From: an uncultured Sphingomonadaceae bacterium
Lineage (GTDB): Bacteria > Pseudomonadota > Alphaproteobacteria > Sphingomonadales > Sphingomonadaceae
Direction: 5' to 3'
Assembly (NCBI GenBank): GCA_938050045.1
Contig: CALLJS010000017.1
Coordinates: 124,001-188,000, forward strand
DNA: 64,000 nucleotides
Part shown: piece by piece, positions 46,812 through 52,969 of the stretch
Position numbering within the stretch: the stretch's first letter is position 1
Layout of the letters: each line of letters starts with the position of its first letter
Program-made: the position numbers and the translations under genes
Notes under the pieces: generated by a model
Databases searched by the model: none
The model's input: the letters and a program-made list of their open reading frames with translations, nothing else
Told to the model about the DNA's origin: nothing

Positions 46812-47573
46812 GTGATAGCTGGATCGTGATTTCTAATATGCTATAGTAAAAATATAGGACATATAATTGTTGACTATGTTATAGCTGGACCGTGATTTCT
46901 AATATGCTATAGTCGAGCACATTCAGGCAAATTTGATTAAGCAGTTATAGCTGGACCGTGATTTCTAATATGCTATAGTGTTTTGTTGAGTAGGTCACGT
47001 ATTAATGTAGTTATAGCTGGACCGTGATTTCTAATATGCTATAGTTCAAATATTCGCGCACTTTGATGCCAAGCGGTTATAGCTGGACCGTGATTTCTAA
47101 TATGCTATAGTGAAGCGGCTGCAAAATATAACAATATACCAGTTATAGCTGGACCGTGATTTCTAATATGCTATAGTGTTGCTTGGTGGGACATCTGCCG
47201 TTGCTAGGTTATAGCTGGACCGTGATTTCTAATATGCTATAGTTTCGGATATACCGTAGCACACGTGGTATTTGTTATAGCTGGACCGTGATTTCTAATA
47301 TGCTATAGTGTTTCGGATATACCGTAGCACACGTGGTTTGTTATAGCTGGACCGTGATTTCTAATATGCTATAGTGTTTCGGATATACCGTAGCACACGT
47401 GGTTTGTTATAGCTGGACTGTGATTTCTAATATGCTATAGTTCAATATTTCCATCTAAAAACCCTGTATCAGTTATAGCTGGACTGTGATTTCTAATATG
47501 CTATAGTAGCCTGTAGCAATACATCCTCATAAAATGGGTTATAGCTGGACTGTGATTTCTAATATGCTATAGT
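46812..47573 (+). CRISPR. type II-C CRISPR array, 12 repeats of 36 bp, 11 spacers all 30 bp
   Basis: Consensus GTTATAGCTGGACCGTGATTTCTAATATGCTATAGT; repeats start at 46812 (degenerate, 2 mismatches), 46878, 46944, 47010, 47076, 47142, 47208, 47274, 47340, 47406, 47472, 47538; the last three carry C->T at position 14. Confidence 0.99.
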
Positions 47574-47648: not shown

Positions 47649-48032
47649 TTAAAATAATGCAAGTTGACCCGGATTTTTCCGCTGTCTTTTGCGGCTCTGC
47701 CCTGAAAAGCGTATGATGTTTGCATATTGTTTGTCCGTAAATCCTAAAATATGGATGTCGCCTTTATCGGGTAAATTTGATTCTATGTGCCGAATATATG
47801 TTTCAAACTGTTCTTTGCCCGAACAGAATCGGGCATAAATAGAAAATTGCGCCATTTCATAGCCTTCGTCCAGTAAAAATTCACGAAATTTTGATGCCGC
47901 TTTGGCTTCCTCGCGGGTTCCAACGGGAATATCGAACATGACCAAAATCCACATTATTTGATAACCGCTATAATGACCAGTTTCGACTGGTGGGGTAGTT
48001 TTCGGCGCGCTGAATTTTGCGGAACCATTCAT
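47649..48032 (-). CDS. cas2: CRISPR-associated endonuclease Cas2
   Basis: 127 aa; MWILVMFDIPVGTREEAKAASKFREFLLDEGYEMAQFSIYARFC; adjacent to array and cas1. Confidence 0.97.
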   Translation of the reverse strand: MNGSAKFSAPKTTPPVETGHYSGYQIMWILVMFDIPVGTREEAKAASKFREFLLDEGYEMAQFSIYARFCSGKEQFETYIRHIESNLPDKGDIHILGFTDKQYANIIRFSGQSRKRQRKNPGQLALF

Positions 48033-48967
48033 CTGGTCTCCCCATCGGGAACATGCCTTGCTATTGCCATCCAGCCTAATGCTGTTGGTGGCTCGAACAA
48101 AGCGAGTGATAAATTATTATTGTCAAAACTTTTTGCTAAGCTTTGGCATAATCTTTGTGCCGCAATTGTTGTCGGTGACGTCATGCCGTGCAATGTTAAA
48201 TCAGCGCAAATAAGCGCAGCAAGCCGTTGTTTGACTATTGAGTCTATATCTTCCAGTCCCTCTTTTATCATTTGATACACAAGCGCGTCGACCAGGGGAC
48301 GAAAAGGCTCAACCAAATCATCTGCAAGGGCAAAAGCGTTAAGCCGATTGGCGTGATGCAGCCCAATGGTTGGGTGCAAACCCGATGCAACAATGTTACG
48401 TGCAATTAAGGAGCGCATGATCGTATAACCATAATTTAGCATAGCATTCGCGCCATGGGCATCGCGATTGCGCCGAAAGTCTTTGCCCATAAGAGCAGGC
48501 CAATAGCGGCGGGCTGCTTGCGCCTCCATATTATTGGGATCGCCCGATTTTACGCGGCCCGCCATAAAATTAAGCGCCTCGGCCTCGGGGTGATTATGTG
48601 CGGCTAGTAGGCTGGCTTGCATCTTTATTTTTGCAATGACGATGGCTTTCCAAGCCCGTTTCATCAAAGGTCGCGAAGCATCCCATTGGGCCCTGAACCG
48701 AGCATTTTGTTCATGATTGCCATCAATGGGAATGGTCATGGCAACGGGGGCATGATTGGCGGCGCATAACACCATCATCGCGCCGCGCTCTGCCAATTTC
48801 ACCACCAAATTGGTGGTCCATGTCACGCCGTGGGCATGCACTATGATGGCGGCGATGTCGTCTAATGCCACCCGTCCAATTTCACTATGATCGCGCGATA
48901 ATATTAATAGACCGCGATGCACAGATAGATGCACCTTGTCTGTTGAGACGTCAACAATACGATCCAT
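48029..48967 (-). CDS. cas1: CRISPR-associated endonuclease Cas1 (type II)
   Basis: 312 aa; LLILSRDHSEIGRVALDDIAAIIVHAHGVTWTTNLVVKLAERGAMMVLC...NAMLNYGYTIMRSLIARNIVASGLHPTIGLHH. Confidence 0.98.
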   Translation of the reverse strand: MDRIVDVSTDKVHLSVHRGLLILSRDHSEIGRVALDDIAAIIVHAHGVTWTTNLVVKLAERGAMMVLCAANHAPVAMTIPIDGNHEQNARFRAQWDASRPLMKRAWKAIVIAKIKMQASLLAAHNHPEAEALNFMAGRVKSGDPNNMEAQAARRYWPALMGKDFRRNRDAHGANAMLNYGYTIMRSLIARNIVASGLHPTIGLHHANRLNAFALADDLVEPFRPLVDALVYQMIKEGLEDIDSIVKQRLAALICADLTLHGMTSPTTIAAQRLCQSLAKSFDNNNLSLALFEPPTALGWMAIARHVPDGETR

Positions 48968-49016: not shown

Positions 49017-52000
49017 TTAATCGAGCGGTCCAGGATCGAATATATGGCCCAATTCATTAATGCCTATTTGCCGGGCCTTCATTTTTTGCAGGCCGCTAGC
49101 CGAAGTGTTTATATATTTAAAAGGATCGATAGCATCTGCATCTCTTGCTTTTAATGAACCTGCTTCATTATCGGGGGCAAGCTGGATAGCCCCCGATGCA
49201 GCAAATTTGACCACGCGGGCAATAATATTCTCGCCATCGCGTTCGATGGCCATCATATCATTTTGACGCAGGCTTAAGATGCGTTTGGCTGCGGGATGCG
49301 GTTTTATCTCGGCCATACCGCTCTGATGGGCATCAAACATTGATATGATGCTGTTATGCGCCGCGCCATCACGGTCTTTCCATTTGGTGATCCATTTGCC
49401 ATTTGGCATTCTCCACACATCAAAGCGTGCATTGGCATCGCCTTTATACGCTTTATAGGCTTTGCCATGCTTGTCTGTAATCGGAATGACTTTGAGCGCT
49501 TCACACAGCCTTACCCGCCTAATCCCTTTATAGGGGCCATCGCGCTTAGCAAAGGCGCGCAAGGCACTTTCAAACGCTTTGCCGCTGGTATCGCGTGTTG
49601 CAGTGTATAAGGCGTCTTGCAGGACATGATCGCTCATACGCTCTGGGTTGGTGAGATCTTTGGGTTGGAGCGATAATAATGGTTTGCGCGTCACCACAAT
49701 CGGCGCGCCCTTGGCATTGGTGCGCCCTGTTAAACCATAAGCGGTTTCATTGTGCAGCCGTCCTGAAGTATTATCTTTACCGGGTTCAGGCTTTTTTCTG
49801 CGGCCATGATCGGCTTTGTGGCTGATTGTCGTGGCCAATAATGCAGTGCGTAAGTCGTCTCGAAATCCCTTCCAAGGTTGCGGCAGACCATCAAATTTTT
49901 TATCTAAATTTTGGGTTTCGGCGCGCCCCGCAGCGGTCGCAATTTTTTGAATCATGGCTCGGTCGGTCGCGCCAACAACGGCGGCATCAATCGCATGGTG
50001 GCGATGATCGAGCCGGTTTTTGGGCGCATTGCTATGTTCATTTTCGACCCAATTATGATCGGCTAAAATATCGTTTAATCCCCACAAACGGCGCAGCATC
50101 GATGTCATACGGCCCGTAACAGCATAGACGCGGCAGCCTTCGTCGGGTGTATATAATGCACCGACATATTTGGCGGCAAGGCGCGCCAGATATTGGGTAT
50201 CGGTTAATTGGCGCGCGATGAACCCGCCGTCTTTTTCAACTTTTTCCATGGCATTAGGGCCAAAGCGCCATTGCTTTGATGTGTGCATACGCGCCACTTG
50301 CGCTTGAATTATGGGCCAGCGATCCGTTTTGCCCCAACGGCCCCACGGCGTTTGTTGTCCTTTTTCTCTGTTGCAATGGCTATGGCAAATGATTTTATTC
50401 GCCGCGCCATCATCCAAACATTTGGAATAGGGAATGATATGATCAACATCGGCTTCGCTGTTCATCAGCATTTCTATCGTCACCTGCTCGCCGCAATAGG
50501 GGCAACGGCGGTCAAGAGCGTTTTTAGGATTGAGTTCCTCCCAAAGGCGCAGCAACATGCGGTTGCCGCCATTGTCGCGTTGCCCCATCGATTCTAATAT
50601 TTCCCCGCGTGCTTTCGCAGCATCGGTATTGCGTTTAATACGGCGATTTTGTTCGGCCTTTTGTTTGTCGTTTAACTTTAATTCGCGGGCGAGTTCGACA
50701 TAAATATAATCGGGCCGTCCATGGATTTTGATAATCGCATTGATAAGCTTGCGCAATTGGTTCATGCCAATATGCACGGTGGGGTTGGTTATTTTGCCAT
50801 ATTGGCGTTCGGTATCATCCCTATATTCCTCTTTACCAGGGGCAATGTCGCGCGTTAATATTTCCCCATAATAAGGGAGCTGCGTTATATTTTTGCCCGT
50901 GCGCTGATCGCTATGGTTAAATCCTGCGCGCTTTGCAGCCTCGGCATAGGTTATCACCTCTTGTTTCAGCTCTTTGAGCAGCATTTGGGTGGCCATAATT
51001 CCAAAACGGCCATAACCCTCTGGCAGGCGAACATTAGCAATATTGGTTGCTGTTTCTGCGTCTAATTGATGCTGCTCCATCAACCAATGGAGCAATTTTT
51101 CTGTATTTTCCTCTTCTGTTAATTGATGGATAATCGCTAATTGGTCTTGGGTGGAAAAAGCACCCCATTGGCCATTAAAACATTTTTTGGCGTTCATGGC
51201 GGCGCGCACTTCATCGCCCAATAGGTCTTTGCGGTTTTCGCTTTCTTTGTTAAATCTCTCGCCGCTGGCCAATTTAAGGGTCTTGGCCAAAGATTTGAAA
51301 GTGACTTTTTTCGAGTTTTGCAACTTCATGATTAACGCATCGCGCTCATCCATTGTCAATTTGCGCGATGATGCGCCGGCTATTTCAATTTCTAGCTGAT
51401 TTACTTCCTCATATAATCGGCGCTGCTGGAACAAAGGATGGGCTTTGGCAATGCGCCGCTCATCAGCAGGGACACCGTTCCAGCCTGAAAATGTGCAAAA
51501 TCCGACTACTTGCGCTTTTAATGGCCTTTGAAAAAATATTATGCGCGCAATGGCATCATGCGCTTCTTGGGTTAATATAGCGCGATGATATTTTTGCTGC
51601 GCTTGCCAAATTTGGGCAAATTCATCTTGATAATGTCTGCGATCGGGATAAAAATCATAGCCATCGCCTTCGGGTCGCATGCGCACCCGTTTGCCGATGC
51701 TTATTGTTTTTGTTTTACCGTTTTTGCTCGCTCCTTTGACGGTTTGGCTGACATCGCGTTTCAATAAAAATTCGCCCAAGGTGCGTGCTTGTAATCGCTC
51801 CATTTCGGCATCAAGGGCTTTGGTGCCGCTGGCGATTTTACCATCCTCTCCCGCAACACGGTCTGCTTTACGATTAGACTTAAAACCGCGCCGCTGGTTG
51901 AGATGAAATAGCGCGCGGCCAAGCTGATGCAGCGTGATTTCTTCATCCAATGCTGTGACGCGCAATATATAAGGATCAAATATCTCTAATGCCTTTGCCG

Positions 52001-52253
52001 CCATTTGATCGCGCGGCAACAGGCCATAGTGCCGTAATGCTTTTAACAGGGCAGTACGACGCCCTTTATAGCGGTCTCTGCGGCGGCGCATCGCGCGGGC
52101 ATCGCGCCGATCAACCGCGAGGCTTGCCCCTGATTTGGGATCGCGGCCATCGGAAAATATACGAACCCCGATATCACGAATAATATCACCATCATAATAG
52201 CACCAACCGATTGAATTGGTCCCAATATCCAGCCCAAGCTTTGTGCTAACCAT
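49017..52253 (-). CDS. cas9: type II-C Cas9 endonuclease (about 1078 aa)
   Basis: ORF 49017-52274; start refined to ATG 52253 preceded by GGAGGTGAAA; RuvC-I LGLDIGTNSIGW, HNH CPYCGEQVTIEMLMNSEADVDHIIPYSKCLDDGAANKIICHSHCNREKG, RuvC-III HRHHAIDAAVVG; no csn2 or cas4 next to it. Confidence 0.99.
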   Translation of the reverse strand: MVSTKLGLDIGTNSIGWCYYDGDIIRDIGVRIFSDGRDPKSGASLAVDRRDARAMRRRRDRYKGRRTALLKALRHYGLLPRDQMAAKALEIFDPYILRVTALDEEITLHQLGRALFHLNQRRGFKSNRKADRVAGEDGKIASGTKALDAEMERLQARTLGEFLLKRDVSQTVKGASKNGKTKTISIGKRVRMRPEGDGYDFYPDRRHYQDEFAQIWQAQQKYHRAILTQEAHDAIARIIFFQRPLKAQVVGFCTFSGWNGVPADERRIAKAHPLFQQRRLYEEVNQLEIEIAGASSRKLTMDERDALIMKLQNSKKVTFKSLAKTLKLASGERFNKESENRKDLLGDEVRAAMNAKKCFNGQWGAFSTQDQLAIIHQLTEEENTEKLLHWLMEQHQLDAETATNIANVRLPEGYGRFGIMATQMLLKELKQEVITYAEAAKRAGFNHSDQRTGKNITQLPYYGEILTRDIAPGKEEYRDDTERQYGKITNPTVHIGMNQLRKLINAIIKIHGRPDYIYVELARELKLNDKQKAEQNRRIKRNTDAAKARGEILESMGQRDNGGNRMLLRLWEELNPKNALDRRCPYCGEQVTIEMLMNSEADVDHIIPYSKCLDDGAANKIICHSHCNREKGQQTPWGRWGKTDRWPIIQAQVARMHTSKQWRFGPNAMEKVEKDGGFIARQLTDTQYLARLAAKYVGALYTPDEGCRVYAVTGRMTSMLRRLWGLNDILADHNWVENEHSNAPKNRLDHRHHAIDAAVVGATDRAMIQKIATAAGRAETQNLDKKFDGLPQPWKGFRDDLRTALLATTISHKADHGRRKKPEPGKDNTSGRLHNETAYGLTGRTNAKGAPIVVTRKPLLSLQPKDLTNPERMSDHVLQDALYTATRDTSGKAFESALRAFAKRDGPYKGIRRVRLCEALKVIPITDKHGKAYKAYKGDANARFDVWRMPNGKWITKWKDRDGAAHNSIISMFDAHQSGMAEIKPHPAAKRILSLRQNDMMAIERDGENIIARVVKFAASGAIQLAPDNEAGSLKARDADAIDPFKYINTSASGLQKMKARQIGINELGHIFDPGPLD

Positions 52254-52273: not shown

Positions 52274-52304
52274 CCCTACAATAAAAATCAATGCCCTACA
52301 ATAA
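52274..52304. repeat. two direct copies of CCCTACAATAA in the cas9 5' region, 20 bp apart
   Basis: 52274-52284 and 52294-52304, exact. Confidence 0.9.
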
Positions 52305-52326
52305 GATATACATTGACTTCTGACTT

Positions 52327-52355
52327 ATTATAGTTTAGGCAGCTTTTAGTGCTAA
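52327..52355 (-). promoter_or_regulatory. predicted cas9 promoter
   Basis: minus strand TTAGCA (52355-52350) - 17 bp - TATAAT (52332-52327); implied start near 52320. Confidence 0.6.
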
Positions 52356-52362
52356 GAAATTT

Positions 52363-52402
52363 ACTCACTCTCAGTAGGATTCAAACCTAATTGAGAGTGA
52401 GT
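52363..52402. repeat. hairpin between cas9 promoter and tracrRNA locus
   Basis: ACTCACTCTCA / TGAGAGTGAGT perfect 11-bp inverted repeat with inner TAGG/CCTA and loop ATTCAAA. Confidence 0.85.
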
Positions 52403-52544
52403 TAGCAATCATTTAGAAGTGTTGTGAAAGAATATTAGCACAAGAGGATGGTGTCCACAACTATCTTCGAACATACAATATTTGATATTATACGATTAAT
52501 TAGTAGACATCTTATTGTAGTTTCAGTTGGGCCGTGATTTTTAT

Positions 52545-52570
52545 TTGACAATAATGGTCAAATCTATAGT
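52545..52570 (+). promoter_or_regulatory. predicted short tracrRNA promoter
   Basis: TTGACA (52545-52550) and TATAGT (52565-52570); spacing only 14 bp. Confidence 0.55.
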
Positions 52571-52576
52571 TATAGA

Positions 52577-52653
52577 TTATTAGAAATCACGGTCCAGTTG
52601 TTAACAAGCAGCTTGACTGCACCAAATAAGGCAGAGGCTACGGCCTCTGTTTT
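52577..52653 (+). ncRNA. tracrRNA (short form)
   Basis: anti-repeat TATTAGAAATCACGGTCCAG (52578-52597) is the exact reverse complement of 20 nt of the CRISPR repeat; GCAG-CTTGA-CTGC hairpin; terminator CAGAGGC-TACG-GCCTCTG then TTTT. Confidence 0.92.
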
Positions 52654-52893: not shown

Positions 52894-52969
52894 TGGTGCC
52901 GAATATCCGACTCGAACGGATGACCTACCGCTTACAAGGCGGTTGCTCTACCAGCTGAGCTAATTCGGC
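52894..52969 (-). tRNA. tRNA-Thr (anticodon TGT)
   Basis: reverse strand GCCGAATTAGCTCAGCTGGTAGAGCAACCGCCTTGTAAGCGGTAGGTCATCCGTTCGAGTCGGATATTCGGCACCA folds as a cloverleaf with encoded CCA. Confidence 0.97.

Follow-up and report, generated by a model that had tools for sequence, protein, structure and literature searches.

The closest described counterpart of the locus reported here is the long tracrRNA (tracr-L) of Streptococcus type II-A systems, which serves as a natural single guide, as related in the passages that later papers devote to it (Workman et al. 2021, via PMC8616872, PMC8730458, PMC11417352, and PMC12216829). Its guide match in S. pyogenes is reported as 11 nt, and a 2021 review held the extended tracrRNA form to be absent from subtypes other than II-A (PMC8616872). 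In the literature that we searched, which comprised open-licence papers only, we found no report of a natural single-guide tracrRNA in type II-C. Two other kinds of RNA invite comparison: the CreR RNAs of type I and V-A systems, which provide an analogous autoregulation of cas genes (reviewed in PMC12737573), and the scaRNAs of the type II-B system of Francisella novicida and the type II-C system of Neisseria meningitidis (PMC8730458, PMC13431127).

We analyzed a 64-kb stretch of DNA (the window) from an uncultured Sphingomonadaceae bacterium, a Sphingorhabdus-like alphaproteobacterium, that carries cas9, cas1, and cas2, followed by a 12-repeat array, and a tracrRNA gene. Because csn2, the II-A hallmark, was not found at this cas locus, the gene order identifies it as type II-C. 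The tracrRNA gene is divergent from cas9 and includes, fused 5' of its anti-repeat, a degenerate CRISPR repeat with a guide directly 5' of it. The features are as follows.

46812 to 47573, plus strand: CRISPR array, 12 repeats of GTTATAGCTGGACCGTGATTTCTAATATGCTATAGT with a 66-bp period
47649 to 48032, minus strand: cas2 (TIGR01573, E = 1.1e-20)
48029 to 48967, minus strand: cas1 of type II (NMENI; TIGR03639, E = 3.1e-76)
49017 to 52253, minus strand: cas9, 1,078 aa, with ATG at 52253 (TIGR01865, E = 2.4e-178)
52277 to 52284, minus strand: predicted operator 2, 8-nt seed match TTATTGTA, with flank GGGTGTTA at 52276-52269
52289 to 52296, minus strand: PAM-like flank GGGCATTG of operator 1, fitting NGRNNT
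52297 to 52307, minus strand: predicted operator 1, 11-nt protospacer ATCTTATTGTA, an exact guide match
52327 to 52355, minus strand: predicted cas9 promoter TTAGCA-N17-TATAAT (10/12 consensus positions)
52509 to 52519, plus strand: 11-nt guide segment ATCTTATTGTA of the predicted long tracrRNA
52520 to 52555, plus strand: degenerate CRISPR repeat, 36 nt, no gaps in its alignment with the array repeat of the same length (19/24 in the 5' part)
52545 to 52550, plus strand: TTGACA, candidate -35 element of a short-form tracrRNA promoter
52578 to 52605, plus strand: anti-repeat
52632 to 52653, plus strand: terminator-like hairpin and T run, tracrRNA 3' end
52509 to 52653, plus strand: predicted long tracrRNA or natural single guide, with a repeat:anti-repeat hairpin (MFE -55.3 kcal/mol, z -7.6)

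The RuvC motif LGLDIGTNSIGW and the HNH-region motifs DVDHIIPYSK and HHAIDAA of Cas9 are intact in an alignment to a solved Cas9 (9ar4). Translation most likely starts at the ATG at 52253, preceded by GGAGGTG, rather than at the GTG at 52274. The closest Cas9 relatives come from Sphingorhabdus MAGs and are 88 to 90% identical.

The first-pass annotation had described an 11- to 12-nt match between a guide-like segment and the region just downstream of the cas9 promoter, which it took for an autorepression target. The shared word ATCTTATTGTAG indeed occurs at 52509-52520 on the plus strand and at 52307-52296 on the minus strand and, allowing up to one mismatch, nowhere else in the window; in shuffled versions of the window it had a mean of 0.31 copies, and two were reached in 5 of 100 shuffles. 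The match itself stands, and its length needed correction: the array repeat aligns from G52520, nucleotide 1 of the degenerate repeat, which leaves a guide of only 11 nt. We also considered whether the guide could be part of a Neisseria-like CRISPR repeat with an ATTGTAG end and rejected this, as the array repeat starts with GTTATAG and aligns from G52520. The second, 8-nt copy at 52284-52277 and both flanks are as the annotation gave them; this copy matches the last 8 nt of the guide and lies 20 bp downstream of the first, nearer to cas9. In the 2.42-Mb genome the 8-nt seed followed by NGGNNT (TTATTGTANGGNNT) is nearly unique, occurring twice, both times upstream of cas9 (reversed-pattern control, 4). 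The promoter call was likewise reproduced, and the target lies at roughly +14 to +24 relative to the predicted transcription start. Its location just downstream of the promoter therefore holds for the window, and the target in the relative L006, a locus of Altericroceibacterium indicum DSM 18604, also lies downstream of the predicted start, but position relative to the promoter varies among the relatives.

Two features by which a tracr-L is recognized are present here, namely, a 5' guide of about 11 nt with a match in the cas promoter region and a repeat-like segment upstream of the anti-repeat that folds onto it. A sigma-70-like consensus scan of the plus strand called a promoter for neither the long nor the short form of the tracrRNA, and an Rfam search matched no CRISPR RNA family. 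A TTGAC element recurs in many relatives, placed after the degenerate repeat (or cas9) and before the anti-repeat.

To place the window among its relatives, we drew cas9 loci from two sources, named genomes and surveys of genomes at the family, order, class, phylum, and genus levels. The loci were oriented, the array repeat was read, and the stretch most like a repeat on the 5' side of the anti-repeat was picked blind to guide matches. In 16 loci (the window and 15 others, all alphaproteobacterial), a guide that ends at the degenerate repeat matches the upstream region of its own cas9. The guides differ in wording, and nearly all of the other 15 match over 9 to 13 nt at the seed end, a cluster resembling the 11 nt of S. 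pyogenes (PMC8616872). The match covers 11 nt in the window, L005, L053, L086, and L189; 12 nt in L047, L064, and L093; 13 nt in L004; 10 nt in L052; and 9 nt in L196. One mismatch falls within the first 11 to 12 nt in L001, L006, L087, and L167, and L056 aligns over 20 nt, with positions 3, 5, and 14 and the PAM-distal end mismatched; several of the residual mismatches (in L006, L087, L056, and L196) place a guide G against a protospacer A, i.e., an rG:dT wobble. L001 and L005, whose sites are homologous, differ by one A/T substitution that is present on guide and target alike. In L046, L057, and L085 the degenerate repeat is present and no good target was found. Among 20 blindly processed long-intergenic Sphingomonadales loci, matches greatly exceeded the within-locus null (Fisher p = 9e-10). 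In a swap test on the same loci, guides scored a mean of 8.4 on their own promoters versus 4.3 (maximum, 8) on others, and 0 of 100,000 permutations came up to the own-promoter mean. Simulated guides gave a combined p of 7e-22 over the catalogue; since this was partly completed after matches had been seen (e.g., L056 and L087, in the latter of which the right degenerate repeat was the second-best repeat-like stretch), more trust should be placed in the blind figures. In the beta- and gammaproteobacterial Cas9 loci of the phylum sample, cas9 and the anti-repeat lie close together, and those with a readable repeat show no guide; other alphaproteobacterial loci of the class survey mostly lack the guide anatomy; short spacing goes with guide absence in the loci surveyed.

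Target flanks played no part in the match search. In the window's Cas9 branch, G at position 2 and T at position 6 are found at 13/13 sites, G at position 3 at 12/13, and T at position 7 at 11/13, so that all 13 sites share a PAM-like consensus, NGRNNT (mostly NGGNNTT), deduced from the targets. The more distant Cas9s of L064, L093, L167, and L196 have other flanks, as would be expected if their PAMs differ. Array spacers compared with phage and plasmid collections and with viral contigs gave one usable match, an L047 spacer in phage PaMx28, and this protospacer is followed by CGAGCTC, in agreement with NGRNNT. Several relatives have a TTGAC-like -35 element just 3' of the protospacer, so placed that the PAM-like flank leads into it. 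Covariation of guide and target in relatives, on which the annotation had staked its reading beforehand, is seen: guides vary, yet each fits the upstream region of its own cas9, and the flanks agree on one PAM-like motif. Both observations support its proposal of autorepression by a tracrRNA-borne guide.

We consider it very probable that a tracr-L-like natural single-guide tracrRNA directs Cas9 to bind, without cutting, its own promoter and so exerts feedback on Cas9. The divergent tracrRNA gene would yield both an ordinary tracrRNA and a longer RNA starting upstream of 52509, in which the degenerate repeat would fold back on its own anti-repeat and thereby form a single-guide RNA that needs no crRNA. 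Once loaded into Cas9, the 11-nt guide would pair with the template strand at 52307-52297, beside the PAM-like NGGNNT, and more weakly through the 8-nt seed at 52284-52277. As these matches would be too short for cleavage, the catalytically intact Cas9 would stay on the cas9 5' region and repress transcription of cas9-cas1-cas2, a negative feedback on the Cas9 level. In CRISPRi, a guide that pairs with the template strand blocks elongation poorly; given such pairing and a target downstream of the predicted start, repression in the window could only come about at initiation or from a different start site.

This arrangement resembles the Streptococcus tracr-L in its predicted long tracrRNA beside cas9, whose 5' guide of about 11 nt matches the cas promoter over a stretch that would be too short for cutting. 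The Streptococcus target is PAM flanked, and the flank here is PAM-like, with NGRNNT deduced in place of NGG. Separate promoters for the long and short forms, reported for Streptococcus, are suggested here, and the repression known from II-A is a prediction in our case. Unlike the II-A systems, the locus is a II-C one without csn2, from Alphaproteobacteria, and its Cas9 is only distantly related; moreover, the window has two predicted operators, and even close relatives show turnover of guide and operator. With CreR it shares a crRNA-like RNA whose partial match would send the effector to its own cas promoter, but the CreR effector is of type I or V-A, whereas here it is Cas9, and the tracrRNA itself holds the repeat joined to the anti-repeat, which sets it apart from CreR. 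Like scaRNAs, which work with or bind Cas9, it would be a CRISPR-associated small RNA not derived from the array. However, the scaRNA of F. novicida is a molecule of its own that depends on tracrRNA in trans and represses genes for lipoproteins, and the Neisseria scaRNA acts posttranscriptionally on efeUOB. The RNA described here departs from the scaRNA pattern of a separate RNA with non-cas targets, in that its guide is fused to the tracrRNA and both genomic seed-plus-PAM sites lie upstream of cas9.

When the 16 loci with a guide are mapped on an 81-row Cas9 tree, 13 state changes are required, at least 12 of them forced by well-supported branches (shuffled mean, 14.8), a scatter indicating that the guide trait was gained or lost often. 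The guide and operator of the window are unlike those of its relatives with 88 to 90% Cas9 identity. In L006 the homology between guide and promoter extends over about 22 nt with one indel, and in L046 an 18-nt identity, AAATCGGGAAGCGTGATG, links the region of the guide to that upstream of cas9, with a misfit at the PAM and at the two final bases of the seed. A genome of the same genus, G1364, carries a solitary long-tracrRNA-like gene with guide, degenerate repeat, anti-repeat, and terminator (L205:1483-1650); neither cas9 nor cas1 was detected in this one-contig genome, and no seed-plus-NGRNNT target was found for the orphan's guide. Such an orphan, and homologies longer than a working guide requires, are what one might expect of nonfunctional relics, the degenerate repeat being the scar of a tracrRNA duplication and the match a leftover of sequence duplication. 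We nonetheless regard this as very unlikely, because in most loci the match is limited to 9 to 13 nt at the seed end next to a PAM-like motif, with diverged surroundings, and random decay would not preserve that combination in 16 loci.

That the shared word is instead the binding site of a conventional regulator, with copies flanking a divergent promoter region, would accord with the two copies of TTATTGTAGGG 20 bp apart upstream of cas9 and with the fact that divergent genes commonly share operators. A protein operator would, however, keep its sequence across relatives; here the word changes in nearly every one, always stopping exactly at the degenerate-repeat boundary, and flank conservation is on the target side only, which makes this account hardly credible. 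Pairing of a tracrRNA leader with the cas9 mRNA as antisense would be allowed by the target strand in L086, L056, and L189, but in the other 13 of the 16 loci the protospacer is on the cas9-sense strand and the guide has the sequence of the mRNA, so that binding to DNA is required there; antisense action, which moreover would not predict PAM-like flanks, is excluded for the window by strand and has almost no probability overall. A chance match in AT-rich intergenic DNA, for which the window alone would allow a p of only 7e-4 (about 7 per 10,000 simulated guides reach a seed-anchored match as long), is refuted across loci by the swap test and the combined p values and is practically nil as an explanation.

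The longer homologies in L006 and L046 may be snapshots of guide capture. We tentatively entertain, as a possibility somewhat short of even, that self-repression in type II-C arises repeatedly, with guides captured from the system's own cas9 promoter (by copying or as a self-derived spacer) and kept at about 11 nt for binding without cutting, that guide and operator are exchanged together within short evolutionary times, and that the sites display the PAMs of uncharacterized Cas9s. A self-repression trick previously described for Cas9 of subtype II-A appears to be present in II-C across Alphaproteobacteria, and its occurrence there with many different guide-operator pairs suggests that such feedback recurs as a response to the burden of carrying Cas9. 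The predicted operators would also provide a cheap PAM prediction, NGRNNT for the window's Cas9 branch, and these systems should acquire more spacers once the guide is removed.

Several minor observations were also made. Within the array of the window (47240-47402), one protospacer (TTCGGATATACCGTAGCACACGTGG...) is covered by three spacers, two identical and one shifted by two bases; their shared core had no exact match in viral contigs. In genome G235, a solitary CRISPR repeat-like stretch off the array (L209:1500-1532) lies beside an IS transposase-like ORF. A tRNA gene (52897-52969, minus strand) follows just past the tracrRNA terminator. An 11-bp inverted repeat (ACTCACTCTCA/TGAGAGTGAGT) at 52363-52402 separates the predicted cas9 promoter from the tracrRNA leader; hairpins occupy a similar place in L006 and L086 and are found in the cas9 5' leader in other relatives.
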